Made by a program: the position numbers and the translations under genes. The notes beneath the pieces were generated by a model, which was not told the origin of the DNA, did no database searches, and worked only from the letters and a program-made list of their open reading frames with translations. A stretch of 40,322 nucleotides of DNA from Bacteroidales bacterium. GTDB taxonomy: Bacteria > Bacteroidota > Bacteroidia > Bacteroidales > UBA7960. The stretch's first letter is position 1. Each line of letters starts with the position of its first letter. Shown here piece by piece: positions 5,071 to 38,642 of this stretch. The stretch lies in assembly GCA_019429055.1 (NCBI GenBank), contig JAHYJP010000016.1:1-40322 (forward strand). The letters run 5' to 3'.

Positions 5071-6432
5071 TTACTTCACCATTACTTTCCTGACGATCTC
5101 CTTTCCTTCACCAAAAAATTGCAGAATGTAGTATCCTGGTTGCAAGGCAGAAACATTTAGGTTGAAGTCCTGCCCGGTTTTGATTTTCAGGTTCAGTTGA
5201 ATCGCGCCATTTAACGAAAGCAGTTGAACTTCTGAAAAAACATGATGGGATGGCATTTTAATGAAAATTATTTCGCTTGCCGGGTTTGGATAAACCCGGA
5301 TATCTGAATCTGTTAAACCGGAAACTGAAGTCGGCATTTCAACCTGTAATGCATCTGACATCCATTTACATGCATTAAAATAGTTAGTTTCTACCTGGTA
5401 ATTACCGGAAATTTCCGGAATCAGGAAAGCTTCTTCTGCTCCGGTAATGGGCTCACCATCCATAAACCATTGATAGCTGTAAGCTTTCGTGCTGTAAAGG
5501 GTATCACCCTGCAAAATGATTTCCGGTTTCCCAATGATAGTATTTTGCATAAATGTAATCCGGGATGAATTTTGAAGCGAGTCCTGAAGCTCATCCCAAC
5601 TTTCACAATTATCTTTCAGAAAAAAGTCTAACCAGGGAGTGGTAATATCGGCTGTGGTTTGCTGCTGCTCTTCGCGGGTTAAAGTGATATTACCCGATGT
5701 TCCTGACTCACCCAGATTGCAATAAAAATTAAAATTGGCAAAATAGCAATGTCCGCCGCCTGTAATACTTACAAGACTTCGCGATTCTGTGGCAAGGGCT
5801 TCGTAAATCGGGATCTGATGTGTTGATTCTGGAGTTACATCATCAGCGCTTCCTGAAATAATAAGTGCAGGTTGAGTAATAATTTGTGCGGCTGAAATGG
5901 CAGATGGATTGGTTTCGGCAGGGGCCAGACCCAGGTACACATCAATATGGTTGCTGTAGGATGTGGCAAGTATTGCAGCTCCGCCACCCATGGAATGCCC
6001 CATGGCGGCTGTGCGACTATTTAAGGTGTGGTACAACGGAGAATCTGAATCATCATTCAGTACCTGAATGGCAGATGCCAGAAATGCGATATCCAGTGCA
6101 AAATCCTGATGGTTTGGGCTAAAACCACCTTCTGTGCGTGGAAAAGCCATGACATAGCCGTGAGAAACGAAATGCGTCCACAGGTTTTCATAAGCACTCC
6201 AGGTCATCAAAAAACCATGGCCGAAAATAAGTAAGGGGAAACTTCCAGGAGCAGGCTCACCCGATTCGGTAACCGGATAATAGATCTCCGTTAAAATGGG
6301 ACGGTTATTCCTGTCGGGGTCGATAAAAGTTATCTGTAAATTACCCACCAAAAATTCCTCAGCTTGTGCCTTTCCGACAAAAATTGCAGAGCAATTCAGT
6401 AACAGAATGAATAACAGTAGTGACGGTTTCAT
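5071..6432 (-). CDS. Secreted alpha/beta hydrolase (PAF-acetylhydrolase/lipase-like) with T9SS sorting domain
   Basis: A 453-residue exported esterase or lipase. Residues 1-24 are a signal peptide ending AQA. The hydrolase fold spans about 30-275, with an oxyanion-type HGF near 72-74, the nucleophile elbow GHSMGG (Ser147), an acidic residue at Asp197/198 (SGSADDVTP) and His228 (GGGHCY), which together make a full catalytic triad. An Ig-like segment follows (about 305-365, YQWFMDGEPITGAE). The last 75 residues are a type A T9SS sorting domain: VYPNPASE at 380, LQPGYYILQF, ending in a KVMVK-type tail. The protein should cross the outer membrane by type IX secretion and be released or anchored at the surface. 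Substrate specificity cannot be read from the sequence. It lies upstream of the helicase on the same strand. Confidence 0.85.
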   Translation of the reverse strand: MKPSLLLFILLLNCSAIFVGKAQAEEFLVGNLQITFIDPDRNNRPILTEIYYPVTESGEPAPGSFPLLIFGHGFLMTWSAYENLWTHFVSHGYVMAFPRTEGGFSPNHQDFALDIAFLASAIQVLNDDSDSPLYHTLNSRTAAMGHSMGGGAAILATSYSNHIDVYLGLAPAETNPSAISAAQIITQPALIISGSADDVTPESTHQIPIYEALATESRSLVSITGGGHCYFANFNFYCNLGESGTSGNITLTREEQQQTTADITTPWLDFFLKDNCESWDELQDSLQNSSRITFMQNTIIGKPEIILQGDTLYSTKAYSYQWFMDGEPITGAEEAFLIPEISGNYQVETNYFNACKWMSDALQVEMPTSVSGLTDSDIRVYPNPASEIIFIKMPSHHVFSEVQLLSLNGAIQLNLKIKTGQDFNLNVSALQPGYYILQFFGEGKEIVRKVMVK

Positions 6433-6612
6433 TTTTTAATTATCATTAAAAAAGAAACGAATTCAACCAAGGGTTGTTCATGGAAGCATTAAAAGTAAAT
6501 ATACTGTTTTTTAAAAATCCCATTCCCCTGCTTTTGCTTTTTTTATTGATCATGCTTTCATAATTTTACACCCGGTATAACGTTACTGTGTAAAACCTTA
6601 ATTTTCATAAAA

Positions 6613-8355
6613 ATGCAAAAGAATCCCGGATTTTTTTCCTTTATTATTTTTCTGAGCATGATGCTCTTTGTGTTGGGTAGTAATTCTTTTACTTACGCAC
6701 AAACACCATCGGTTCGCCTTCAGGATGGTGAATTGATGGGCGAAGGCCCTTACATTGAAGGGGAGAAAAACGGCTTATGGCAATACTATGATCAGGATCA
6801 GGTTTTGCGCGAACGTGGAAATTACGATATGGGAAAACGTATCGGCAAGTGGGAATTTTTTAATGCTGAAGAAATAAAGATCACTGAAATTGATTATGAT
6901 GAAGGATGGTACACCGGCTATTACGCCGATGAAGCCATAAAAGAAACCGGTTCATGGGATAACGAAGGTAAAACAGGTAACTGGATGTACTATTACGAAA
7001 ATGGTCAAAAGCAGGCTGAAGGCGAATATGATAGTGATTCCCGAATCGGTTTCTGGCAGTTTTATACTTTAACAGGGCAACCGGAAGAAACCTACAATTA
7101 CGACACTTTTGCATATGAAGTTTTTTATCCCAACGGAAGGATCCGCGAAAGCGGTAAACGAATCGATGACCGGAAAGAAGGCCAGTATTGCTACTATTAC
7201 CAATCGGGTCAAATCTGGTCGGAAGGCTTATATGAAAAAGATGAGAAAAAAGGCCTCTGGTTATTCTGGTACGAAGATGGCCGGCAATGGGCACAACTGG
7301 AATATGGGGATGGATATAGCAAAACCTGGTATCCTAATGGCAAACCGGAAATGCAGGGTCCTGTAAAAAACGGAAAAAATCATGGAGAATGGGAATTTTA
7401 TTATGAAGATGGATCGCCCAAAGAAGTAACTCACTTTGAACAGGACCGACGAAATGGCCCGTCAAGACGCTACCACCCCAATGGAGAGAAAGAATTTGAA
7501 GGCATATATAAAGACAATAAACTGCATGGTTTTGCCAGCTGGTGGTTCGATAACGGAAACCTTGACATGGAAGGCAACTCCATTAACGACCTGCAGGACA
7601 GTACCTGGGTGTATTACTTCCCCAACGGCAATAAGGCAAGCACAGGCGATTTTGTGAAAGGATTGCAGGAAGGCACATGGACCTACTTTTATACCACGGG
7701 CGAAAAACTTCGCCAGGGCAATTTTGAAAACGGTAAACGTAACGGACTCTGGACCGTATGGTTTGAATCGGGCAGAAAAAGTCATGAAGGCCCCTTTGTA
7801 AATGATGTAGAGCATGGCATTTGGACAAGCTGGTATGAAAGCGGCCAGATGAAAGATCAGGGCCCTTTTAACCAGGCCCGCATGGATGGATTATGGACCG
7901 GCTGGCACGAAAACGGCAGAAAACGATACGAGATTAATTACATCTATGACCCTGCCCAGGAAGGCGAAGTCAGGCATGGAAAATCAACACACTGGCTGGA
8001 GAACGGAAATCTTCAACGGGTAGCCCATTACCAGAATGGTTTGTTACATGGTTTCTTTACACAATATTATACCAATGGTAACATAATGGAAGAAGGCCCT
8101 TATGAAGCAAATATGAAACAGGGTCACTGGGTTTTTTACGATCAGTTCGGCCGCAAAATCAGTGAACAGGGATTTAAGGAAAATCGAATGCATGGGAAAT
8201 TTATTTCATATTATGAAAATAGTCGCAAACGCGAAGAAGGGCAATATGTCGATGGTGTAAAACAAGGTCGCTGGACCATCTGGGATACTGAAGGAAACCG
8301 AATCCGACGCGTAACATTTCAGGATGGCAGAGTTATCGATATGCGTATGAATTAA
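6613..8355 (+). CDS. Exported protein of 22 MORN-variant (YwqK-type) repeats
   Basis: A 580-residue protein made of a signal peptide (about 1-30, ending TYA) followed by about 22 tandem repeats of roughly 23 residues. The pattern is G-x-W-x-x-Y/W-x-x-x-G-x-x-x-x-E-G-x-Y, with units such as GLWQYY, GNWMYY, GEWEFY, GTWTYF and GHWVFY. Repeats of this type are labelled MORN variant or YwqK-family antitoxin in databases, but no toxin lies next to it and the antitoxin name should not be taken literally. The repeat array should form an extended beta-sheet, plausibly a binding or scaffold surface in the periplasm or outer membrane. It is divergent from the hydrolase gene (180-bp gap) and overlaps the MscS-like gene tail to tail by 4 bp. 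Specific function is unknown. Confidence 0.8.
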   Translation: MQKNPGFFSFIIFLSMMLFVLGSNSFTYAQTPSVRLQDGELMGEGPYIEGEKNGLWQYYDQDQVLRERGNYDMGKRIGKWEFFNAEEIKITEIDYDEGWYTGYYADEAIKETGSWDNEGKTGNWMYYYENGQKQAEGEYDSDSRIGFWQFYTLTGQPEETYNYDTFAYEVFYPNGRIRESGKRIDDRKEGQYCYYYQSGQIWSEGLYEKDEKKGLWLFWYEDGRQWAQLEYGDGYSKTWYPNGKPEMQGPVKNGKNHGEWEFYYEDGSPKEVTHFEQDRRNGPSRRYHPNGEKEFEGIYKDNKLHGFASWWFDNGNLDMEGNSINDLQDSTWVYYFPNGNKASTGDFVKGLQEGTWTYFYTTGEKLRQGNFENGKRNGLWTVWFESGRKSHEGPFVNDVEHGIWTSWYESGQMKDQGPFNQARMDGLWTGWHENGRKRYEINYIYDPAQEGEVRHGKSTHWLENGNLQRVAHYQNGLLHGFFTQYYTNGNIMEEGPYEANMKQGHWVFYDQFGRKISEQGFKENRMHGKFISYYENSRKREEGQYVDGVKQGRWTIWDTEGNRIRRVTFQDGRVIDMRMN

Positions 8356-9065
8356 TCCCGGGAAAACTCTTTACTGACAAACTCTCTCAAAGCCTCCTGA
8401 GTTGCCGGAAGCATATCTTCTTTCATAGATTGAAAGGAGATCTCAGCTACATAACTATCATCAACAGGCATAAGACTTACTTTTATTTCTTCTCCCGCAA
8501 TGATCCATGGTAGCTCAAGAACTTTTCTTTTCAAGGATTTCTGAATATTTTGAGCTCCATGCTTCTGGTGTATTTCCAGTTTAATGGTCTGGCTTTTTCC
8601 CCGCCCGTGTGCTGCCATTTTGGTAATTTGTTTTCCTGCAAGCCGGCTGTAGGGGACAATAAGTTTCTCACCATCTCCTGCACGTATTTCCATTGTAATA
8701 TAACCAAGAGATAGGATTGAACCTGAAAAATTTTCGGTTTTGATAAACATGCCGGGCTCCAGTTCCTGGCCGGCACGTAAAACCGCACCTGCAAAAAAGT
8801 CGCGCAACACAAACCATCCAAACAAAAGGACAAAAGCGATAGCCATACTGCCCGACAATACACGATAAATTCCGGTATTACCGAAATGAACAGTAATGGC
8901 CCAGTAAATGAAAACAAACCACAGGATCACTTCCACCCAGGGAAATATTCGTAATACATACGAATGATATTGCTTATTGCGGGCGGCAAGATTAAGAAAA
9001 TAACGACCTCCTCTTAGCAATAAAACAAGAGCAATGGCTACAATTATGGTGATAATAATTTCCAT
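8352..9065 (-). CDS. Small MscS-family mechanosensitive channel-like protein
   Basis: A 237-residue inner-membrane protein with three predicted membrane segments (about 2-20, 42-60, 68-90). These are followed by an MscS-type beta domain: RDFFAGAVLRAGQELEPGMF, then the ENFSGSILSLGYITMEI segment and IVPYSRL. The soluble C-terminal alpha/beta domain runs to the end. Family members release osmolytes on hypo-osmotic shock. At this size it has the minimal MscS core, and the pore helix is only loosely like that of E. coli MscS, so gating is not certain. It lies 76 bp downstream of the large SLC12-ATPase gene on the same strand and may be read from the same transcript, which would pair two ion or osmolyte transport proteins. 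Confidence 0.8.
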   Translation of the reverse strand: MEIIITIIVAIALVLLLRGGRYFLNLAARNKQYHSYVLRIFPWVEVILWFVFIYWAITVHFGNTGIYRVLSGSMAIAFVLLFGWFVLRDFFAGAVLRAGQELEPGMFIKTENFSGSILSLGYITMEIRAGDGEKLIVPYSRLAGKQITKMAAHGRGKSQTIKLEIHQKHGAQNIQKSLKRKVLELPWIIAGEEIKVSLMPVDDSYVAEISFQSMKEDMLPATQEALREFVSKEFSRD

Positions 9066-14967: not shown

Positions 14968-17442
14968 TCATTCGCACTTCAGGGCCTTTGACGGGTTGAT
15001 ATACATGGTGCGAAGTGCATGGATACCAATGGCCAGCCAAACTGTTATCGTAACCATAATAATGGCAATCAGAAAAGGTAAAAAACTGATTTTTACTGCG
15101 TATTCAAATCCGGCAAGCCATTGCCCGAGCAGTTTGTAACTTATAGCAACTCCTGATATGCAGGCGATTATGAGCAAAATTAAATAATCATTGAAAAAGG
15201 TTGAAAAAATATCCAGCCAACCTGCACCCATAACTTTCCGGATGCCAATTTCAACCGTTCGTTGCTCCATATTATAGGCAGTAATACCAAACACCCCAAG
15301 GAATGAAATCAGAACGCATAACCAGGCAAAGTATCCGAAGAAACGGCTCAGATTGCTTTGTTTTATAAAGAAATCTTCAATAATATCTTCAAGAAAATAG
15401 AATTCTGCAGGGTAATAAGGGTCAAACTGATCCCAAACCGAGTGAATAATATTCAGCTGTTCTGCTCTGTCACTTTTGTAAAATCTGACAATATAGTAAT
15501 TGGGAAGAGATCGCATGCCCATAACAATCAGCGGTTCAACCGGCTCGTGTAAAGCTGCGTAATGAAAATCATCCATTACACCGGCAATAGGTCTGTTGGC
15601 ACGCAAACGACCTTCAAGGAACTGGAAGTGTGTGGTTATAATTTTTCCGATGGGGTCATCATAACCCATCGAATCCACAAAAGCGCGGTTTACAAAAACT
15701 CCATTGGTTTTATCAAGAATTTCAGGATTGATTTTTTTATCACCGGCAAATATTTTTACACCCATAAGTTCAAGATACTTTCCTGTGGTCTGAATGGTGT
15801 TGAAAGATCTTACGGTTTGCTGATTGTCCTTTTCAAATAACGCAGTATGTTTAATGGGAAGACTACTGAAAATGTAGTTGCTTGATGCAGTTTTTTCGAT
15901 TTTGGGGTTTTCAAGGAAAAGACTGTCAAGAAGATTTAAATTCGACCTGATATCATTATCATGTATCTCCAGCACGGCAATGTTTTGATATTCGTAACCC
16001 GGATCCATCCGCTGCATATAATTCATTTGCTGATAGGCAACAAACGATGCCGAAATCATAAAGGCCGAAATCGTGAACTGAATTGTAACCAAAACCTTTT
16101 TCAATAATATTGATTTTCTACCGGCACGCATCCGCTGCATAAGCAAATTGATTGTGGAAATTTGAGCAAAATAAACCGCCGGAAATAATCCTGCCAGAAA
16201 TGATGTTAAAAAGAAAACAGAAAAGATAATAACCCCAATCATATAATCATCTGCAATCCTGAGTTTTAAATCCAATCCCAGAAAATCATTGATAAAAGGA
16301 ATGATCAACTCAACCATAAACAGAGCTATGAACAAACTTACCAGCGCAGTTACAAATGATTCCACAAAAAAACCTGCAAATAACTGCCTGCTTCCACTTC
16401 CAAGAACCTTTATTATTGCCATTTCCTTTTTCCTTTTGTTAAAATGGCTGATAAGAATATTGGTATAATTGATGGCGGCAACCAAAAGCAGGAATATAGC
16501 TATAACAAAAAATACCCTCACAAGCTGGCGGTTCATTGTCTGTATATGAGCCTTTTCCTTGCTTCGGTCATAGAGCATATCTTCGTCGATATGTATGGAT
16601 GTAAGCTGCTGAAAAACAGGCTTCAAATCAATCTGATGCTTCTCGATAAGTTCAGTAATATGTTTCTCATGAAAGTCAGGCCAGTGATTCTCCAGAAAAT
16701 CATCGGGATCAAAGTCTTCATTGGTCATTATATACGACCACACGATCAAACTACCGAGAGTATTTTCAAAATGCGACCAGTGCACACCCCTGCCAAATGC
16801 CTGTTCGAACATCTGATCCAGTTCATAGAGTGTGGAAACAGAAATCAATGCATTAAAATGAAAATGGGTATTAAGGGGTGAATCTTCAACCACGGCTGTT
16901 ACGGTAAAAAAGCCGGTATTTTTCACCCAAAGTTTTTTTCCGACAGCATTTGAATTTCCGAAGATTTCATTTGCCATACTACGGGTAAGTACAATTGAAA
17001 ATGGAGCTGCAAGAACATTCCGGGGATTTCCTTCCAGAAAATCATACGTAAAGAAATCAAAAAACGTGGAATCAACGGCAAAGACATCTGAATCATAAAA
17101 AAACCGGTCGTTATACCTGTAAACTATATCTCTGAGAAAATAATGGACATGAAAAACCCTGACATAAGATTGAAGTTCTGAAAACTCATTGACCATCAGC
17201 GGAGCCAAACCTGCACTGCTCACTGCAAAGTTTTGTTGCTGATCAAAAATCTGCATTTCTATACCCAGCCTGTAAATATCATTCTTGTGGGTATGCCAGT
17301 TATCGTATGTGGTCTCAAAGCGCAGAAACAGCAAGATCAGCACCGCACTGGCCATGCCCAGGGCCAATCCTGTTATATTGATAACAGTATAAAGTTTTTC
17401 CCTGGCAAGCCTGCGCAGACTGATTCTTGCAAAATAATTCAA
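14968..17442 (-). CDS. FtsX/MacB-type ABC transporter permease
   Basis: An 824-residue inner-membrane permease of the large family common in Bacteroidota. The first helix is at about 18-40 (INITGLALGMASAVLILLFL). A periplasmic MacB-like domain spans about 45-275, FtsX domains lie at about 285-410 and 690-815, and there is a second periplasmic segment between them. TVEIGIRKVMGAG near the end is the typical FtsX coupling segment. No in-frame ATG exists between the upstream stop and residue 30, so the start must be the TTG at 17442. No ATP-binding subunit is adjacent; these permeases often borrow one encoded elsewhere. It lies 25 bp downstream of the small lipoprotein gene, so the two form a unit. 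Substrate is unknown; lipoprotein release or peptide export are the usual roles. Confidence 0.85.
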   Translation of the reverse strand: MNYFARISLRRLAREKLYTVINITGLALGMASAVLILLFLRFETTYDNWHTHKNDIYRLGIEMQIFDQQQNFAVSSAGLAPLMVNEFSELQSYVRVFHVHYFLRDIVYRYNDRFFYDSDVFAVDSTFFDFFTYDFLEGNPRNVLAAPFSIVLTRSMANEIFGNSNAVGKKLWVKNTGFFTVTAVVEDSPLNTHFHFNALISVSTLYELDQMFEQAFGRGVHWSHFENTLGSLIVWSYIMTNEDFDPDDFLENHWPDFHEKHITELIEKHQIDLKPVFQQLTSIHIDEDMLYDRSKEKAHIQTMNRQLVRVFFVIAIFLLLVAAINYTNILISHFNKRKKEMAIIKVLGSGSRQLFAGFFVESFVTALVSLFIALFMVELIIPFINDFLGLDLKLRIADDYMIGVIIFSVFFLTSFLAGLFPAVYFAQISTINLLMQRMRAGRKSILLKKVLVTIQFTISAFMISASFVAYQQMNYMQRMDPGYEYQNIAVLEIHDNDIRSNLNLLDSLFLENPKIEKTASSNYIFSSLPIKHTALFEKDNQQTVRSFNTIQTTGKYLELMGVKIFAGDKKINPEILDKTNGVFVNRAFVDSMGYDDPIGKIITTHFQFLEGRLRANRPIAGVMDDFHYAALHEPVEPLIVMGMRSLPNYYIVRFYKSDRAEQLNIIHSVWDQFDPYYPAEFYFLEDIIEDFFIKQSNLSRFFGYFAWLCVLISFLGVFGITAYNMEQRTVEIGIRKVMGAGWLDIFSTFFNDYLILLIIACISGVAISYKLLGQWLAGFEYAVKISFLPFLIAIIMVTITVWLAIGIHALRTMYINPSKALKCE

Positions 17443-17467: not shown

Positions 17468-17680
17468 TCAGATCGAGTCGCCATCAGCAGTTTCGCTGAG
17501 CGTATCAGATGGCGTTTCAAATAATCGCCCTGCTCTCTCAAGCAATTCGCGACGGTCTTTTTCCAGCTGGATGCTGTCTTCTATCTCCTGCTGTCGTTTT
17601 TCTTCAGATGATGGGCCACATGAAATGAAAAATATTGCCAGAAATAAAATTCCGATGCCTGAGGAAATCTTTTTAATCAT
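17468..17680 (-). CDS. Small lipoprotein, probable partner of the FtsX permease
   Basis: A 70-residue protein with a basic start (MIKK), a hydrophobic helix and a lipobox ending FISC at Cys21, so it is predicted to be lipid-anchored. The mature part is very polar and helical (SSEEKRQQEIEDSIQLEKD). It ends in an acidic, Ser/Thr-rich stretch. I recognise no domain. It is the first gene of a two-gene unit with the FtsX permease 25 bp downstream. Confidence 0.7.
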   Translation of the reverse strand: MIKKISSGIGILFLAIFFISCGPSSEEKRQQEIEDSIQLEKDRRELLERAGRLFETPSDTLSETADGDSI

Positions 17681-17829
17681 AAATCCAACTTTTTAGAACT
17701 GATTGATTGCCGGTAGTTCCAGGTTTAATAAACTCAATTAATAACCCAAAAAATCCCGGTTAAAAAAACGGGTACTAAGATAGTTAAAACTTATAAAAAA
17801 TCGGGGTGGGAGGCTGATATAAAACAGAA

Positions 17830-17859
17830 CCGGCTTCTGCTGTTTTTTGCAGAAGCCGG
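17830..17859 (-). terminator. Rho-independent terminator downstream of the DUF4382 gene
   Basis: CCGGCTTCTGC (17830-17840) and GCAGAAGCCGG (17849-17859) form a perfect 11-bp stem with an 8-nt loop. It lies 36 bp after the stop of the DUF4382 gene. Read on the minus strand it is followed by GTTCTGTTTTAT, a moderate T tract. It closes the sigma-factor operon. Confidence 0.8.
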
Positions 17860-17895
17860 CCTGAAGAAAGTTTAAGGTTTTATTGGGAAAAGAAT

Positions 17896-18909
17896 CTATT
17901 CATCGTCATCATCGCCGTTGCCGTTGTCATCTCCGTTGTCGTCACCGTTGCCATCATCGTTGTCGTCGCTGTTGCCATTATCATCATCTTCCTGATAATA
18001 ATCATCCAGATCAATATCTACCGTGGTAACAAGACTGGGTTCAACCATTATTCCTTCAACCAACCCCAATACCTGGCTGAATTCGCCATCGAGATAGAGT
18101 ACAATTACGAGATCGTACGACACAGGTGCCAGGAAAGCCAGAAAGTAGTGTCCGTCCTCATCAACGGGGTCGCTCACAACAGCATTGGGGAAACGTGGTG
18201 TTTCGGGTTCAGGATCGGCTGCTTCATCTTCAGTGTAGGTACCTTCTTCGTAGGCATAAATTAGGATCTGATGGTCTTCCTGAATGTTGAAAACTTCACC
18301 TGCAATGGCACCTGCCTGATCGTCAACAATAAGGCGAATGGTAGGCTTCAGGATATATTTACCCGAATTACCCGCCTTTACAACTGACTTACGCACATCA
18401 AAATCGGCTGTTACTGAAACCGTACCGTTTGAAGGTACAGTAAACTGGCCTACTGCTTTATAGCCTGACTGGGCTCCGCTGGGAACAAATAGCGGTACTT
18501 CTGATCCATCTTCAAACTCAAGCCAGCAGCCGGGGTTTGAATGGTTACCACCACCCATGGTGGGTGCCTCCAGCATGAATCTTAACTGAGTATAGGTTCC
18601 GGCTTGAAGTTCAAAGAATCCAAGCAGATCTGTTTCACCGCGGGTAAGGTCAAGAAGATTGTAGGTCTGCGGTCCTTCAAAATCTTCAAAGCTGTACCAT
18701 TCATCATCATCCGGAGTATGATACTTTACATCAATAAATGTGATATATACACCGGTTATTCCATCTGTATCAATAGGTGAGTCGGTTATGGAAAGTTTTA
18801 GAGTTCCTTTTCCATCCATGTCGTTGGACGACGGATCTTTTTCGCAAGCTGAAAAAATAAATATCATGATAGCTGCAAAAGATAAAATTAAACTGAGTTT
18901 CTTAATCAT
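17896..18909 (-). CDS. DUF4382 lipoprotein with acidic Asp/Asn/Gly tail
   Basis: A 337-residue lipoprotein; the signal peptide ends in FSAC with Cys22. Residues about 34-190 match the DUF4382 beta-sandwich: GTLKLSITDSPID, VYITFIDVKYH, LLDLTRGETDLLGFFELQAG, YTQLRFML. A second domain follows (about 195-295, AGAIAGEVF onwards), probably a carboxypeptidase-regulatory-like beta fold. The last 35 residues are almost only D, N, G and E in imperfect GDDNGDDN repeats, a likely metal-binding or spacer tail. It is the last gene of the sigma operon, 77 bp after the anti-sigma gene, and a strong terminator follows. By position it resembles the lipoprotein gene found in das-dma type operons. Role at the outer membrane is inferred. 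Confidence 0.85.
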   Translation of the reverse strand: MIKKLSLILSFAAIMIFIFSACEKDPSSNDMDGKGTLKLSITDSPIDTDGITGVYITFIDVKYHTPDDDEWYSFEDFEGPQTYNLLDLTRGETDLLGFFELQAGTYTQLRFMLEAPTMGGGNHSNPGCWLEFEDGSEVPLFVPSGAQSGYKAVGQFTVPSNGTVSVTADFDVRKSVVKAGNSGKYILKPTIRLIVDDQAGAIAGEVFNIQEDHQILIYAYEEGTYTEDEAADPEPETPRFPNAVVSDPVDEDGHYFLAFLAPVSYDLVIVLYLDGEFSQVLGLVEGIMVEPSLVTTVDIDLDDYYQEDDDNGNSDDNDDGNGDDNGDDNGNGDDDDE

Positions 18910-18986
18910 AATTCAAAGTTTTTGGTTAAACAATATTACGCTTATATCCATAAGACGGTGAAAGAAAGAAAAGGGTTGGAATGGGA

Positions 18987-20198
18987 TCAATAAAAAGAAT
19001 AAGAAATAGCAAAAGATAAATTCAGGGATGCATTATGGGTTCGGTTCAGAAAGTCCGGCATTCTTTCATTACCTGAAAAAACGTTATTCAACCCCATTTG
19101 TGCAAACAGTCCTGGTGTGAAAGTAAGATGCCCGGTAAGAGGAAACGGGTATTCGTAACCGAAAATCAGTCCATAATCAAGGTTCTCATATTCATTATCC
19201 ACGTAACGGGAAATACCATTAATAGTTTGTGTGGCCTGTTGCATGAAACCGGTGTAGGCACCTGCCAGAAAATAATGCGGACGAGCATGATTTCCTGCAT
19301 TAAACCGGGCCATCAGCTTCAGGGAATAATAATCCAGAGTGATATCGTTGGTTACAAAATTTCCATTGATATACTCCCTGTATATTTGCCGGTTGCGGTT
19401 AAGCAACATTATTTCAGCTCTTAACCCCAGGCGTTGGGTTAGTCCCGCTCCTATCTGCATACCCAGGTTACTTCCAAAAGACGGGTCGGTAAAAGTCAGT
19501 TCATCACTTTTAAGGCCCGTAAAAGTTTTATCATTAAGCATCCAGGTATTGGCCAACTGCCCTGTAAATCCAATGTAAACAGATGAAAGAAGGTTATCCG
19601 CCCTGATTTCATTAACCCGAAATGACAAGAAATCATCTTTTCCCGCAAATGAAGATCTGAAATTCAACGAATTGCTTTGATCGGCATCCAATTGCATATG
19701 GGCTGCAAGCAAAGGTAACGGCTGCGACCTGGTAACTTCTTCTTCAAATGATGCTTCGCCGGGTTGAACATCCTTAAGAGGACTGATCTGAGCATATTGT
19801 ATCACTTCCCTTGCGGGAATTTCGATATCTGTCCGGGCAGGTGGAATTCCATTTTCTGCCTCAGCAGTAAAACCTTCATCTTCTGGCTTTGTGGCAGCAC
19901 CTGTATCAACTTCACTTTCTTCTGTTTCGCTCACATACAGGGCAGCCTGTTTGGATTCATCGATACCGGAAGGCGATAAAAAATACCATAAACCCAATGT
20001 GGACACGGTAAGAAAAAGCGTTGCAGCAACGGCAAATGCTGCAATACGCTTTTTCCTTGCATGGCTACTGAGGGAGGCATCTAACCGTGTCCATACAGCA
20101 TCAACGTCCAGCTGATCCTGAACCCCGTCCCAAATCGCTTCGGGAGGGGCTTCGGTGCCGGAGTCGACAATTTTTTTATACCATTCGTTAATATTCAT
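18987..20198 (-). CDS. Putative dual-membrane-spanning anti-sigma factor (inner-membrane helix plus outer-membrane beta-barrel)
   Basis: A 403-residue protein with an unusual topology. Residues 1-47 are cytoplasmic and helical (NEWYKKIVDSG, PPEAIWDGVQDQL), the right size for a sigma-binding segment. RKKR precedes a single helix at about 51-73. Residues about 75-200 are a low-complexity acidic and proline-containing linker. Residues about 200-403 are amphipathic strands of an outer-membrane beta-barrel, with strands such as YYSLKLMARFNAG and the C-terminal SFAISYSFY ending in an aromatic residue. One chain would therefore cross both membranes. The gene starts 8 bp after the sigma gene stop, as expected for a cognate anti-sigma factor. 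This matches the Dma (dual membrane-spanning anti-sigma) family described in Bacteroides thetaiotaomicron, as far as I recall it. Confidence 0.8.
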   Translation of the reverse strand: MNINEWYKKIVDSGTEAPPEAIWDGVQDQLDVDAVWTRLDASLSSHARKKRIAAFAVAATLFLTVSTLGLWYFLSPSGIDESKQAALYVSETEESEVDTGAATKPEDEGFTAEAENGIPPARTDIEIPAREVIQYAQISPLKDVQPGEASFEEEVTRSQPLPLLAAHMQLDADQSNSLNFRSSFAGKDDFLSFRVNEIRADNLLSSVYIGFTGQLANTWMLNDKTFTGLKSDELTFTDPSFGSNLGMQIGAGLTQRLGLRAEIMLLNRNRQIYREYINGNFVTNDITLDYYSLKLMARFNAGNHARPHYFLAGAYTGFMQQATQTINGISRYVDNEYENLDYGLIFGYEYPFPLTGHLTFTPGLFAQMGLNNVFSGNERMPDFLNRTHNASLNLSFAISYSFY

Positions 20199-20206
20199 AA
20201 GTGTTT

Positions 20207-20749
20207 TTAATTACCTTTTTCGCCCAGCCAATCTCTGAGCAGTTGTCGTGCCCTGTTAAACTGAGACTTTGATGTTCCTTCCGATATATTAAGCTCCTGC
20301 GCAATTTCTCTGTGTGTATAACCTTCCACTGCAAAAAGATTGAAAACCATGCGCGCACCTTTGGGTAACCTGGCAATGAACTCCATCAGATCTTTTAGCT
20401 GAAGCTCTGGCAAAGCATCATTTCCTGTGGAAATTTCCATATCGGGATATTCTTCAACTATGAATTGTTCTTTCCCCGATTGCCTGAGCATATCAATGCT
20501 TGTGTTTACAACAATTTTTCTTATCCAGCCTTCAAAAGAACCCTCGCTTTTAAAGTTGCCTATATTTTTGAATATTTTGATAAAGGCTTCCTGTAACATA
20601 TCCTGAGCCAGGGGTCTGCTCCCCGCATAGCTCAGACATATACCGTACATTTTACGAGCATACTGCCGGTATAACATCTCCTGGAATTCTCTTTCTCCCT
20701 TCCGGCAGCCCTCAATGATTCTTCCCTCACTGTATAACTCAGTAGCCAT
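20207..20749 (-). CDS. ECF RNA polymerase sigma factor
   Basis: A 180-residue sigma-70 family factor of the extracytoplasmic-function class. Region 2 spans about 22-90, including the -10 recognition helix around DMLQEAFIKIFKNIGNF and the FEGWIRKIVVNTSIDMLR segment. Region 4 spans about 122-175, with a helix-turn-helix in YTHREIAQELNISEGTSKSQ. Region 3 and the N-terminal region 1 are absent, as usual for this class. It sits between a lipoprotein gene (9 bp upstream) and the putative anti-sigma gene (8 bp downstream), so the three are translated from one transcript. It should be held inactive by the anti-sigma factor until an envelope signal arrives. No target promoter can be named from this window. 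Confidence 0.92.
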   Translation of the reverse strand: MATELYSEGRIIEGCRKGEREFQEMLYRQYARKMYGICLSYAGSRPLAQDMLQEAFIKIFKNIGNFKSEGSFEGWIRKIVVNTSIDMLRQSGKEQFIVEEYPDMEISTGNDALPELQLKDLMEFIARLPKGARMVFNLFAVEGYTHREIAQELNISEGTSKSQFNRARQLLRDWLGEKGN

Positions 20750-20758
20750 TAAAAACTT

Positions 20759-21502
20759 TTACTCAAACACAATTGTAAAGGCATTATTCATTCGTGCTGC
20801 TATCTGATTGAAAATATTTCGGTTGTTACTGTTACTTATCTCCAGAATATTCTGTCCGTTTTCCACAATAATGTCGGCATTCATGAATACCGCCGGATTT
20901 ATCAGCCGGAAAAGTGAACCCGCATCCAGCCTTATCATTGCCGTTGATGGCTGATCCTTTCTCAATGTTATTTCCTGGTTGGCTCCGCCTCCTGTGGAGC
21001 GGATGGTAAGGATATCATCAAACGGATACTCAAACCGGATAGTAACCGGACCTAACCCAGGCCTGTTAAACAAACCCTCAAGTTTTAAAGGAATATCATT
21101 ATGATCGTTGCCCAGGTGCAATGAAATATCAATTCGTTTGTAAATGCCCTGGGGTATATCAAAATCTACAGTTGCCTGCGTGCCCTCCTCATGGAGTTTG
21201 GCAACTACCGGAGTCGGAAAATCGGATATAAAATAAACATCCTGACCCTGCTCCCGCTTACCATCAAACTCAATAGCAGCAACTACCAGGGTACCCTTAT
21301 CAATGGTAAAACTAACAGGTCCGGGCTGACCGGCTGAACCGTATCCATTCTTAAAACCTTCTTCATTTTCAGTGTCGCTGTGCGGAGTCATTCCAAAATG
21401 AAAATAAACTTTAGAAGGTAATGCCAGCTCATCTTTGCTGCAGGATGAAAACACCCCCAGGATTATGGCAATAATCGGCCAGAATATTCTTAATTTTTGC
21501 AT
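20759..21502 (-). CDS. Lipoprotein at the head of the sigma operon
   Basis: A 247-residue predicted lipoprotein. The ATG at 21502 is chosen because it gives a short signal peptide ending FSSC (Cys21); an earlier ATG at 21520 would add six residues. The mature part is beta-rich. It carries a stretch (GTLVVAAIEFDGKREQGQDV ... IPQGIYKRIDISLHL) that recalls the layout of the DUF4382 domain in the lipoprotein at the other end of the operon, though I cannot claim homology. It begins the transcript that contains the ECF sigma and anti-sigma genes (9-bp gap). A periplasmic or surface sensing role, or regulation of the barrel protein, is inferred from context only. Confidence 0.7.
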   Translation of the reverse strand: MQKLRIFWPIIAIILGVFSSCSKDELALPSKVYFHFGMTPHSDTENEEGFKNGYGSAGQPGPVSFTIDKGTLVVAAIEFDGKREQGQDVYFISDFPTPVVAKLHEEGTQATVDFDIPQGIYKRIDISLHLGNDHNDIPLKLEGLFNRPGLGPVTIRFEYPFDDILTIRSTGGGANQEITLRKDQPSTAMIRLDAGSLFRLINPAVFMNADIIVENGQNILEISNSNNRNIFNQIAARMNNAFTIVFE

Positions 21503-21598
21503 CTGAAATAAATTGAACATCTAAACATTAAGACGCACAAATTAATCAAAAGGTTGGAATAAATCCACTGTTTTTTAGGGAATATTATCATGATTAAC

Positions 21599-21629
21599 TT
21601 GACATATGGACTCATTTTATTTAAATTTG
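21599..21629 (+). promoter_or_regulatory. Bacteroidota-type promoter of the superoxide dismutase gene
   Basis: TTG (21599-21601), exactly 20 nt, then TAAATTTG (21622-21629), a full match to the TTG-N19-21-TAnnTTTG consensus. Transcription should begin near 21635. The reading frame is open upstream of this point, so only the ATG at 21660 leaves room for a leader. Confidence 0.75.
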
Positions 21630-21659
21630 CTAAATATGTTTCATTCAAAAAAAGCACTT

Positions 21660-22235
21660 ATGACACACACATTGCCCGCTCTACCGTATGCTATGAATGC
21701 GCTGGAGCCAGTTATCAGCGAAAAAACCATCAGTTTTCATTATGGGAAACATCATCAGACCTATGTGAACAAGCTTAATGAACTGGTGCAAGGTACAGAA
21801 TTTGAAAATGCCAGCCTGGAAGACATCATCAAAAAGGCTGAAGGAGGAATCTTTAACAACGGTGCCCAGGTCTGGAACCATACGTTTTACTGGAATTGCT
21901 TGTCTCCCGATGGGAAAAAGGAGCCGGACGGTTCTCTGTTGAAGGCTATCAATAATAAATTTGGCTCCTTTGAGAAATTCAAAGAGGATTTTGCCGCTGC
22001 TGCCGCCACGCAATTCGGTTCAGGCTGGGCCTGGCTGGTAAGAACCGTTGGCGGAGGTTTGGAAATTTTAAAGACCCCCAATGCTGAAAATCCTATGCGC
22101 GAAGGCCACACTCCCCTGCTTACCTGCGATGTCTGGGAACACGCATATTACCTCGACTTCCAGAACCGACGCCCCGACTACGTTAAAGAATTCTGGAACA
22201 TTGTTGACTGGAAAAAGGTGGAAGAAAGGTTTTGA
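21660..22235 (+). CDS. sodB: Superoxide dismutase, Fe-type
   Basis: Converts superoxide to oxygen and hydrogen peroxide in the cytoplasm. The protein is 191 residues, normal for the family. The metal ligands are His27 (FHYGKHHQTYV), His74 (QVWNHTFYWNC), Asp157 and His161 (DVWEHAYYLDF). Gln70, two turns before His74, is the mark of the iron-type enzyme; a cambialistic enzyme is possible. An upstream ATG at 21606 would add 18 residues, but it lies inside the predicted promoter and the added residues do not look like the family. The start MTHTLPALPYA is standard. The gene is transcribed away from the sigma operon and has its own promoter and terminator. It lies next to an oxygen-sensitive glycyl radical enzyme, which fits an anaerobe exposed to air at times. 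Confidence 0.97.
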   Translation: MTHTLPALPYAMNALEPVISEKTISFHYGKHHQTYVNKLNELVQGTEFENASLEDIIKKAEGGIFNNGAQVWNHTFYWNCLSPDGKKEPDGSLLKAINNKFGSFEKFKEDFAAAAATQFGSGWAWLVRTVGGGLEILKTPNAENPMREGHTPLLTCDVWEHAYYLDFQNRRPDYVKEFWNIVDWKKVEERF

Positions 22236-35822: not shown

Positions 35823-38642
35823 TCATTCCTCTCCTGCTCTGATCCTGTCAGCTCTATGGTTGGCTTCGCGAACCAGCTGTGTAGCACGCTCGTCAGCTTC
35901 CCTTTCCAGATTACCTGCCCTTTGATCTGCTGCCCTGATTAGTTCTTCACCTGTTCTTCTTGCGGCAGCTTTGGCTATGGGTCCGCTGGCTTCATCCTCC
36001 AGCCTTCTGGCATTGGTGCGGACTTCGCTCCTGATGGCATCGGCAGCATTTTTGGCTTCGCGGCGAATATTGGTAGCCTGCCTTTCAGCTTCAGTAACAA
36101 CCTGCTGTGCTCTCCTTTCAAGTTCTTCCCTTACCTGTTCCGATGCATCATCAATTCTATCGTCCACTTCATCCCGGATTTCATCAACCACGTCTTGCAC
36201 AGCATCCTGTATGGCATCCTGAACCTGATCTCTTAATCCGCCTGCTGTTTCTGCAAGACTGATGGATATTCTGGGTTCGCTTACTGTTCCGGCAATACCA
36301 ACACCTATATTTACATTTTCAGATGGGGTAATATTCAAACCACGACCTGCTGCCTGACTGATAAGATTATCCAGGGCCTGATTGGCAGCACCGCCAAACT
36401 CTGCGCGCGGAATAACAAGACCCATCATGTAATTAATGGATTGATCGAAGGAATGTGTGCCGCTGATACGGGCACTGGATCGACCGAAACTGATATCGAA
36501 GGGTTCTACCTGAACCCCACCATCTTTAAATTCAAAAAAGATAAGTATATCGCGAACATCAAACTTACGAAACATGTCAAGCCTCAGGTTCTCAGCCAGC
36601 CCTATCAGGGCAGGGCTGTTTTCTATAGTAACAGCTGATGACTGCAAACTACCGCTACCTGCCAGCGAATTAAGCACCGGATCAAGGTTCTGATCAAGAA
36701 GCGACCGCAATGTGAAATTGGCAGAAAACCTGCCTCGTGCTCTTTCTCCTATGGGCGCTATTACGCTGAAAGTATTGAAGGTGTTGAACGTTTTTTGAAT
36801 ATCAAAATTGGAAATATTAAGCCCGAAATCAATTTCAGGGCGGGTTATATCGCGTGCAATATAAGATCCGTTTAGCACCAGTACTCCATCAAGCATATTC
36901 ATCCGAAGGTTTTCCAGGCGAGCTGCCTGATCGGCAATTCTAATATTACCCCGGGCATTGGTAATCTCGAGATCACCAAAGAGTATCTTTTCAAAATTTC
37001 CCTGCAGCAAAAAATTGATATTTGCAGGTATTTCAATGGCCGAAAGGGTAATTGGCTCGTCATCAGGCACTTCTTCGGGCTCTTCGGCCATAAACTGGTT
37101 CAGGTTAAAAAAGGATGAACGTACATCAAAATTACCTCTCAGCATTTCATCACTGAGAACAAATCCAAGAATATTATCAATACGACCGGATGCAGTTATA
37201 TCACTTTCTCCAATAGTAGTTCTGAATGTTCTCAGTTCAGCAAACTGCGACGAGAAGCGTAAATCAGCGGTTGAAATCTCTACCCCTTGCGGGAAAGCTT
37301 CACTTACATAATTCATGTTGTTTACGGAAAACCTTCCGGTAAAAAGAAACTCGTTGTATCGTTCGTTTTCAATGCTTGACAAACGCCCTTTGGCAGTCAT
37401 GTCGCTTTCGATTAAACCAATCAGCGACGCTCCTTCATCCAGGGGATAAAAATCTTTCACCTGCCCCAGGTCAATCCTGCCCTTCAGTTGGGCATCAATA
37501 TTGGGATCAGAAACGGGAGTGCGCAGATTCATCTTGAAATCGACAGGGTTACCGGCCACATTCATGGTAAACCTGCTTACATCCACCACAGTAAGGTCTG
37601 CATCATTTCCCGGATTATTGATCCGGGTAATTATATTTACATCCGTAACAGCGGCGGGAAGACCGGGATACTGAAACATTCCGTTTTCAACATCAATGTT
37701 AATTCCGAAACCCGGAATTCTGTTCTCATCATATACACCCTTAACATGACCATTAAATGCCATACTGCCTGATGTATTCAGTCCTTCATACTCTTTTGCA
37801 AAAATGGCTGGAACAAGGGAAAGAAAAGACTTGAACTCTGTTTGGGGAGATGAAAATGTAAAGTCAAAATCCATAGCTTCACCGGGCCAGGCAAAGGTGC
37901 CTTCAAAAACGGTAACCAGATCGTTTAAAATCAGGCTGTTGTCTTTGAAAGTAAATTCAAAAGTATTAAGATTAGCATCAATATCTGCAGTTAAGTCTAA
38001 AGAAACTCCCCAAAGGAAAGGAATGCCTTCATAACTTACATATAGCGATTCTGCAGTTGTATTACGCACAGCAATACTGGTAAAATCAGCGGTAAAATCA
38101 CCACTTAATGAATGATTAAAGTTTTCCAGGCGTGTGTAAAAATCAAAATATCGGTCATCATAAATAATTTGTGAGTTGCGTACGCGGAAGCTACGGAGTG
38201 CTATTTTAAAGTCGAAGTCTTCATCTGGTTCCACCGTTTCTTCAGAAGGAATGGCTATATCCCAGTTGGCTTTCCCATCTTCAAGCACTTTGAGTAGCAG
38301 GCTGGCATTATCAACCCTGATGGACTTAATTTCGTACCCATCGCTTCCAAAGATGCTCATAATGTTCACTGAAATGAAGAAACTTCCCACATTGGCAAGC
38401 GTATCGCCCTGAAACTCATCAACACCTACAACGGTAAGATCGTTGATGCGCAAGCTGACGTTGGGAAAGTTTCTCAATAAGGAAATACGGAAACTTCCGA
38501 AATCAACCTGTGCATTTACATTTTCATTGATGGCAAGTCTTACCTGTTCAACTATCTTTCCTTTGAATACAACAGGAAGAGCGATCAATAATACCAGTAA
38601 AACAGCTATGGTGATACCGGTTATTTTAAAGAACTTTTTCAT
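35823..38642 (-). CDS. AsmA-family envelope protein with charged helical C-terminal tail
   Basis: A 939-residue inner-membrane-anchored protein. One N-terminal helix (about 5-25, ITGITIAVLLVLLIALPVVF) is followed by a long periplasmic repeating beta region of the AsmA type (about 30-800). It carries the family's C-terminal pattern SSARISGTHSFDQSINYMM and NVNIGVGIAGTVSEPRI. AsmA-like proteins are thought to form hydrophobic grooves that carry phospholipids between the membranes. The last 140 residues are unlike the family core: almost entirely charged, Ala-rich helix (VDEIRDEVDDRIDDASEQ, REAKNAADAIRSEV). They are probably a long coiled coil. It converges with the PBP1A gene. Confidence 0.85.
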   Translation of the reverse strand: MKKFFKITGITIAVLLVLLIALPVVFKGKIVEQVRLAINENVNAQVDFGSFRISLLRNFPNVSLRINDLTVVGVDEFQGDTLANVGSFFISVNIMSIFGSDGYEIKSIRVDNASLLLKVLEDGKANWDIAIPSEETVEPDEDFDFKIALRSFRVRNSQIIYDDRYFDFYTRLENFNHSLSGDFTADFTSIAVRNTTAESLYVSYEGIPFLWGVSLDLTADIDANLNTFEFTFKDNSLILNDLVTVFEGTFAWPGEAMDFDFTFSSPQTEFKSFLSLVPAIFAKEYEGLNTSGSMAFNGHVKGVYDENRIPGFGINIDVENGMFQYPGLPAAVTDVNIITRINNPGNDADLTVVDVSRFTMNVAGNPVDFKMNLRTPVSDPNIDAQLKGRIDLGQVKDFYPLDEGASLIGLIESDMTAKGRLSSIENERYNEFLFTGRFSVNNMNYVSEAFPQGVEISTADLRFSSQFAELRTFRTTIGESDITASGRIDNILGFVLSDEMLRGNFDVRSSFFNLNQFMAEEPEEVPDDEPITLSAIEIPANINFLLQGNFEKILFGDLEITNARGNIRIADQAARLENLRMNMLDGVLVLNGSYIARDITRPEIDFGLNISNFDIQKTFNTFNTFSVIAPIGERARGRFSANFTLRSLLDQNLDPVLNSLAGSGSLQSSAVTIENSPALIGLAENLRLDMFRKFDVRDILIFFEFKDGGVQVEPFDISFGRSSARISGTHSFDQSINYMMGLVIPRAEFGGAANQALDNLISQAAGRGLNITPSENVNIGVGIAGTVSEPRISISLAETAGGLRDQVQDAIQDAVQDVVDEIRDEVDDRIDDASEQVREELERRAQQVVTEAERQATNIRREAKNAADAIRSEVRTNARRLEDEASGPIAKAAARRTGEELIRAADQRAGNLEREADERATQLVREANHRADRIRAGEE

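Follow-up and report, generated by a model that had tools for sequence, protein, structure and literature searches.

How a signal can cross both membranes in one protein chain is an open question for the Dma/Reo family of anti-sigma factors. The question bears on a locus of an uncultured Bacteroidales bacterium (GTDB lineage Bacteria; Bacteroidota; Bacteroidia; Bacteroidales; UBA7960), located on contig JAHYJP010000016.1 of GenBank assembly GCA_019429055.1, a 4.18-Mb draft in 382 contigs (94% complete, 4.7% contamination). Positions 1 to 40,322 of this contig, the whole stretch of DNA that was analyzed, are referred to as the window. On its minus strand, the locus encodes a lipoprotein (lipoprotein 1, lipo1), an extracytoplasmic function (ECF) sigma factor, a Dma-type anti-sigma candidate and a DUF4382 lipoprotein, in this order, followed by a terminator. 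We consider it fairly probable that this module is a self-contained envelope-signaling switch of the Das/Dma (EcfO/Reo) kind, with two surface lipoproteins as its output.

EcfO/Reo of Bacteroides fragilis is reportedly an anti-sigma system of the same layout, a description that has come to us through texts citing it. Dual-membrane-spanning anti-sigma factors, Dma1–3, have been described in Bacteroides thetaiotaomicron (PMC13088901), and in Phocaeicola vulgatus genetic evidence assigns an anti-sigma role to a protein of this layout (PMC9308784, PMC13114119).

Gene order and the single-chain sensor

The first gene of the module encodes lipo1 (20759–21502, 247 amino acids; an alternative in-frame ATG lies at 21520). 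It is followed by the gene for the sigma factor (20207–20749, 180 amino acids), whose matches are generic ECF models in Pfam and NCBIfam (Pfam Sigma70_r2, 2.5e-16; Sigma70_r4_2, 2.1e-15), by that for the anti-sigma candidate (18987–20198, 403 amino acids), characterized by Pfam, alignment, AlphaFold2 modeling and fold searches, and by that for the DUF4382 lipoprotein (17896–18909, 337 amino acids; PF14321, E 7.9e-34). Gaps of 9, 8 and 77 bp separate the four genes. A preliminary description, made from the sequence alone, had given this gene order, the 9-bp and 8-bp gaps and a strong terminator; the coordinates of the open reading frames (ORFs) agree, and an intrinsic terminator lies 3′ of the DUF4382 gene (17828–17861, minus strand; fold of −26.5 kcal/mol, z −6.5).

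The anti-sigma candidate starts with a predicted cytoplasmic head (residues 1–48, window 20055–20198) that carries two W-containing units (W23 and W36), as delineated by alignment. A predicted inner-membrane helix follows at about residues 52–70 (19989–20045), where hydropathy peaks from residue 52, and then a periplasmic linker of ~126 residues (77–202; 19593–19970) that is modeled as disordered (predicted local distance difference test score, pLDDT, <50). The C-terminal part (residues 207–403; 18990–19580) is predicted to be an OmpA-like, 8-stranded outer-membrane beta-barrel. The underlying AlphaFold2 model was built from a 25-row alignment, whose rows came from a protein search that did not use the N217–T225 pattern described below and two of which are cut C-terminally; its mean pLDDT is 64.7 and its predicted template modeling (pTM) score 0.50. 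In this model, a helix of residues 20–74 (H20-74) spans the predicted inner-membrane segment, and eight long strands lie between residues 207 and 401, in blocks of pLDDT 67–96. The best PDB matches of the barrel are OmpA barrels (Foldseek E 1.6e-8; VIA-align Z 15.6–16.3 over 170 residues), and it also matches Pfam OMP_b-brl_2 (E 1.3e-11), as do 12 of 25 family members at E≤0.1. The outer-membrane barrel claimed earlier for the C-terminal ~200 residues is thereby supported, as is the Das/Dma-type architecture as a whole: head, inner-membrane helix, linker and barrel, with an adjacent ECF sigma factor.

Several features of this chain are maintained among relatives. Across 61 sequences (window included, anti-sigma fragments of ≤330 residues left out), 109–178 residues (median 131) separate the hydropathy-predicted membrane helix from the barrel, a length sufficient to bridge a periplasm. 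Positions that do not vary in the 25-row alignment include Y7, P19, W23 and W36 in the head and, where the barrel begins, G210, N217, T218, W219 and T225. One or more W units precede the predicted membrane helix in 60 of the 61 sequences. In some relatives the head is repeated: locus L048 (6732–7033) has three tandem copies of a 110-nt unit at 96-bp spacing, with 70% and 75% identity to the first, and L047 (6898–7091) has two, with 73% identity, while two head units are visible by eye in L163, L178, L179, L236 and L237. These tandem heads support the idea that the head is a modular binding unit, and their duplication suggests a way in which sensor capacity may change.

Of 59 related genomes, 26 contain a match to the anti-sigma protein; 25 of these belong to the window's own family, which is represented by 35 genomes. 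Its closest named relatives come from metagenome genomes labeled Bacteroidales or Bacteroidetes, including many CSSed isolates; the closest of all is labeled Mollicutes, which we take to be a mislabel, and the cultured relatives found are Anaerophaga thermohalophila and Geofilum rubicundum. A set of 64 named loci was collected with an anti-sigma profile and a pattern around N217–T225, so conservation of these residues in the set is by construction. Many of these loci lie on the same contigs as the loci with G handles (e.g. L060 and L031), from which the gene profiles were built, and the two sets are not independent. Contigs are cut before the sigma gene in four loci and before lipo1 in a further three. 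At all assessable loci, the sigma gene lies directly upstream of the anti-sigma gene (60/60) and lipo1 directly upstream of the sigma gene (57/57), so the comparison across relatives bears out the gene order, and lipo1 is a conserved, family-wide partner of the sigma/anti-sigma pair. The gap between sigma and anti-sigma genes is 242–259 bp in L069, L077 and L081; in the other 57 loci it is ≤16 bp or the genes overlap. Downstream of the anti-sigma gene, a DUF4382 gene is found in 35 loci, a related lipoprotein gene in 15 and the contig end in four.

Across the class, the anti-sigma profile matches in 138 of 216 good genomes, with many matches partial or in short barrel proteins. Among class loci with wider flanks, lipo1 is present in five (L234–L237 and L239); it was not detected in class loci L161–L179.

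Predicted twin promoters and regulon

Two exact copies of one ECF-type promoter motif, TTCCAACC-N16-CGTCTTA, flank the first three genes on the minus strand. P1 (21529–21559) lies before lipo1, 26 bp from its ATG at 21502. P2 (18951–18981), which is conserved in relatives, starts 5 bp past the anti-sigma stop codon and ends 41 bp ahead of the DUF4382 ATG. The position of P2, after the anti-sigma stop, thus provides the DUF4382 gene with a predicted sigma-dependent promoter of its own. The 77-nt gap around P2 has no notable fold (z −0.8). The "four-gene operon" of the preliminary description is therefore at best partly right: the order and the tight spacing of the first three genes stand, and a plain operon was rejected for the DUF4382 gene, since the gap before it holds P2. 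Read-through from P1 into the DUF4382 gene is possible.

Alignment of the regions of five loci gives the same picture before lipo1, where TTCCAAC(C/T)TTTT...CGTCT forms a conserved block. A strict pattern was found in 33 of 58 regions upstream of lipo1, against a mean of 0.18 after mononucleotide shuffling. The loci were divided into two groups, and a promoter matrix derived from one was tested on the other, with dinucleotide shuffles as control; sites scoring above every shuffle were found in 21/22 and 32/36 upstream regions. The gaps before DUF4382-type genes had no part in the training; here, 35 of 36 score above the 99th percentile and 26 of 36 above all shuffles. Across 668 kb of loci, 82 sites reach ≥20 bits. 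The regions upstream of lipo1 hold 49 of them and the downstream gaps 27; of the other six, five lie within about 150 bp past the anti-sigma gene and one inside the front of an over-extended lipo1 frame, which places all 82 at the two promoter positions. A third motif-like site in the window, at 37246, has three mismatches and is at chance level. Among 28 more distant pairs, 12 have a site that the same matrix scores above the 99th percentile of shuffles, ahead of either the pair or its lipoprotein gene. At L235:5661, a motif past the Dma-type gene precedes a gene (5929–8553) for an 874-residue protein with a signal-peptide-like start that is not a lipoprotein; the second output slot therefore varies.

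The motif is almost confined to this locus. At ≤1 mismatch, the 4.18-Mb draft genome contains no sites other than P1 and P2. In 18 family genomes (own included), chosen for carrying the locus, 23 of 24 such sites fall in it, while the reversed pattern gives 3; the sole off-locus site is G015:C73:1013, and G019 has none at this threshold. A wide regulon was also considered and rejected, as looser motifs yield fewer sites than their reversed patterns: CAAC-N-TTT-N13-14-CGTC gives 4 sites against 15 in the window genome and 48 against 162 in 14 relatives, and the 2-mismatch motif gives 5 against 19, so that off-locus sites look like chance. With nearly all ≤1-mismatch sites inside the locus, the sequence pattern suggests a regulon of this locus alone. 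The regulons described for Dma/Reo members are scattered, and the predicted one-locus version would represent a minimal system, with two short matching promoters (or reporters), one sensor and one sigma factor. The motif itself could help in looking for Dma regulons in Bacteroidota.

The two lipoproteins

Both lipoproteins start with residues that resemble a surface export signal. The measured optimum for surface export in Capnocytophaga is C-X-K-(D/E)2 (PMC5080379). Mature lipo1 begins with Cys21 followed by S-K-D-E, which fits this signal, and the DUF4382 lipoprotein begins with Cys22 followed by E-K-D-P, a partial match, and has an acidic C-terminal tail. Across loci, the exact signal is found in 28 of 57 lipo1 proteins compared with 4 of 33 other lipobox ORFs, and at least two acidic residues between +2 and +6 in 48/57 lipo1 and 33/35 DUF4382 proteins compared with 14/33 others.

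The DUF4382 lipoprotein belongs to PF14321 (117.3 bits; curated cut-off 25), and its gene is the only DUF4382 match in the window genome. In the literature searched, DUF4382 turned up only in a paper on archaeal glycoproteins, and no paper joining it to sigma factors was found. For lipo1, Pfam returns no family match. Its AlphaFold2 model is a beta-sandwich (pLDDT 87), for which Foldseek finds no match in the PDB at E≤0.001. Profile comparisons hint at a relationship between the two lipoproteins. With signal peptides removed, profile–profile comparison of lipo1 and DUF4382 gives a probability of 60–72% (reversed controls 0.3–1.7%); keeping the signal peptides raises this to 97.5%, an overstatement. 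Lipo1 against the related downstream lipoproteins reaches 67–89% (67 and 89% with larger sets, 74% with a smaller set), and DUF4382 against these other downstream lipoproteins 1.8% with small and 40–46% with larger sets. In direct searches the signal is weak: one of 25 lipo1 family members matches the DUF4382 Pfam model (E 0.054), a lipo1 profile hidden Markov model finds 2 of 33 DUF4382 proteins and a DUF4382 profile none of 57 lipo1 proteins. In the larger sets of these comparisons, 2 of the 35 DUF4382 sequences were left out. Judged by sequence profiles, lipo1 is possibly a very distant DUF4382 relative.

Neither lipoprotein is of the NigD type. NigD was considered for lipo1 and rejected: it has no NigD_N or NigD_C match in Pfam, and hhalign against four NigD sequences gives a probability of 0.1. 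The DUF4382 lipoprotein likewise has no NigD_N or NigD_C match in Pfam, and the NigD_C domain is found in none of 22 genomes of the window's family. The preliminary description had proposed a possible new subtype with other accessory lipoproteins, DUF4382 and an unknown. The different lipoproteins stand, with DUF4382 and no NigD; the "unknown" is the family-wide partner lipo1, a possible DUF4382 relative. No printed account of this subtype was found in the literature searched, which largely excluded subscription papers.

Similar pairs occur with other lipoproteins. Of 17 sigma matches in the window genome, the next gene was inspected for eight and is Dma-type in two. The second pair (L160:1624–3607; barrel Pfam 27.1 bits, cut-off 27) is preceded by a different lipoprotein-like gene (702–1505, Cys-S-R-D-E-D) and has no P1/P2-type motif upstream. 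In another Bacteroidales genome, L245:3845–6361 is a NigD–sigma–Dma-type operon with overlapping genes (Pfam NigD_C 4.1e-33, NigD_N 5.2e-13, sigma region 4 4.8e-15, and barrel 3.2e-6, just under the curated cut-off). Its sigma factor matches our sigma profile (6e-45), and its Dma-type protein does not match the anti-sigma profile at E≤1. As another lipoprotein family occupies the same position in L245, the lipoprotein slot looks swappable, which suggests a general plan, surface lipoprotein–sigma–Dma, where the lipoprotein family is swapped from one lineage to another.

Proposed mechanism, alternatives and known systems

On this computed basis (gene order, modeled barrel and linker, twin motifs with their restriction to the locus, and conservation) we infer how the module might operate. 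The single chain would be anchored in the inner membrane and end in an outer-membrane barrel, while its short cytoplasmic head would hold the ECF sigma factor. Disturbance of the barrel end, by outer-membrane damage, failed barrel assembly or an altered surface partner, would free the sigma factor, probably by proteolysis or a conformational change. The freed sigma factor would transcribe from P1 the lipo1–sigma–anti-sigma genes, a positive loop in which the brake is rebuilt too, and from P2 the DUF4382 gene, possibly yielding larger amounts of its product. Both lipoproteins would go to the cell surface and make up essentially the whole output. Lipo1 is so tightly joined to sigma and anti-sigma that a stoichiometric partnership is suggested, most likely with lipo1 as the surface partner of the barrel; the DUF4382 gene, with a promoter of its own, would supply the bulk output, and its product is most likely the effector. 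Evolutionary distances over 33 loci are consistent with the role proposed for lipo1: the lipo1–barrel correlation is 0.84, or 0.51 with sigma removed, compared with 0.14 for lipo1 and the head with sigma removed.

A number of results weigh against this switch. Evolutionary-distance correlations are weak evidence: the value for sigma and barrel is likewise 0.83, and once sigma is removed the DUF4382 protein follows the head (0.45) about as closely as it does the barrel (0.48). The head blocks of the model have a pLDDT of about 50, making the head fold unreliable, and the head matches no named anti-sigma family above cut-off in Pfam or NCBIfam (best match, NCBIfam "anti-sigma factor", E 0.0077, 16.3 bits compared with a cut-off of 100). 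The closest PDB match of lipo1 is MbnP (VIA-align Z 9.0), which provides no pointer to a barrel partner; lower matches are putative adhesins of Bacteroides and Parabacteroides (Z 5.1–7.3), and on the model all of these appear to share the beta-sandwich only. Among DUF4382 proteins the exact export signal shows no clear enrichment (8/35 compared with 4/33 others). In 10 of the 64 loci, no DUF4382-like gene lies within 700 bp downstream; in four of these (L105, L106, L118 and L121) the next same-strand gene is lipoprotein-like by eye. Before the related downstream lipoprotein genes (lipoD gaps), the promoter matrix exceeds the 99th percentile in 8 of 15 and every shuffle in 1 of 15; 13 of the 15 have a related motif, with a spacing mostly one or two bases shorter, that is poorly scored. 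Finally, the regulon test used a strict motif on a draft assembly, in which weaker promoters would be missed.

An alternative that we hold possible is that the barrel acts as a probe of outer-membrane assembly: upon failed insertion, the chain would be degraded and the sigma factor freed, with the lipoproteins as general envelope-stress products. A single chain inserted by the beta-barrel assembly machinery (BAM) would be a natural reporter. Furthermore, ecfO-reo are reported to be the most upregulated genes of P. vulgatus after exposure to BcpT or to bacteroidetocin A, the latter a BamA inhibitor (PMC9308784, PMC13114119). By itself, however, an assembly probe does not account for lipo1 being joined to sigma in every assessable locus or for the single-locus regulon.

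Conservation within the barrel could point to a ligand receptor instead. Its conserved extracellular loops would then bind a molecule such as a surface glycan, captured or presented by the lipoproteins, and the signal would travel down the chain, as has been suggested for Dma2. The extracellular half of the barrel is more conserved than the periplasmic half, by 0.41 bits; 3 of 194 circular shifts give a difference this large, or 8 of 194 when residues 215–226 are omitted. This comparison used the 23 of 25 rows with >350 residues, and the halves were assigned by hand from the model. Sensing of an unidentified glycan is also a published hypothesis for Dma2 (PMC13088901). However, a conserved rim suits a protein partner equally well, the linker is disordered in the model, and neither a ligand-processing enzyme nor a TonB receptor turned up next to the module. 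We regard a receptor as rather unlikely. A closed surface homeostat, in which the sensor reads its own surface lipo1 and the regulon consists of lipo1, its possible relative and the sensor pair, appears unlikely; if it holds, the two to three tandem head copies in some relatives would tune the number of sigma molecules held per sensor. Finally, the protein could be an ordinary outer-membrane barrel whose N-terminal extension is meaningless, with the sigma factor regulated otherwise. This would fit a head that matches no named anti-sigma domain above cut-off and a head–sigma link that is ours by inference, but it is highly improbable given the invariant head residues, the nearly universal W unit, the unbroken sigma linkage and the genetics of the P. 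vulgatus protein.

The switch that we propose would resemble EcfO/Reo in its ECF sigma gene beside a cytoplasm-to-surface anti-sigma factor, in self-induction of the sigma gene and in surface lipoproteins as prominent outputs. In P. vulgatus, EcfO/Reo responds to envelope-damaging toxins, and loss of the anti-sigma factor induces a regulon that includes surface NigD lipoproteins; the nigD gene M0N98_03762 has a locus tag beside 03761 and 03760 (PMC9308784, PMC13114119). The lipoproteins there are NigD and the targets scattered, whereas here they are DUF4382 and its possible distant relative, with a predicted one-locus regulon under twin promoters. Das1/Dma1 and Das2/Dma2, compared by their published description, share the dual-membrane-spanning anti-sigma factor with adjacent ECF sigma factor and differ in their lipoproteins. 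The vesicle effect of Dma1 acts through nigD1 and requires NigD1 (BT_4005), while Dma2, with neighbors DUF4943, DUF4858 and BT_1555, acts without raising nigD1, and its operon neighbors are dispensable for vesiculation (PMC13088901). Since Dma1 needs NigD1 and Dma2 works without its neighbors, a vesicle role is not transferable to this subtype; vesicle control by this module is possible but not indicated. As in FecI/FecR, an outer-membrane event would control an ECF sigma factor through an inner-membrane anti-sigma factor, but here barrel and anti-sigma head are in one chain. Pfam finds no FecR match among the module proteins, and no TonB-receptor domain in the 16 window proteins scanned (four of the module, three neighbors and nine further ORFs).

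The surroundings of the module contain several other genes. A Fe/Mn superoxide dismutase gene (21606–22235, plus strand) is divergent from it; the enzyme was considered as a module partner and rejected, as among the 64 named loci it occurs only in the close relatives L058 and L060 (many contigs end early). Beyond the terminator, a small lipoprotein-like ORF of 70 amino acids (MIKKISSGIGILFLAIFFISCGPSSEEK...; 17468–17680, minus strand) precedes an FtsX/MacB-type permease gene (14968–17442). Farther away, at 5071–6432 on the minus strand, the window encodes an alpha/beta hydrolase (Pfam "PET hydrolase-like", 2.3e-19) with a C-terminal secretion sorting domain.

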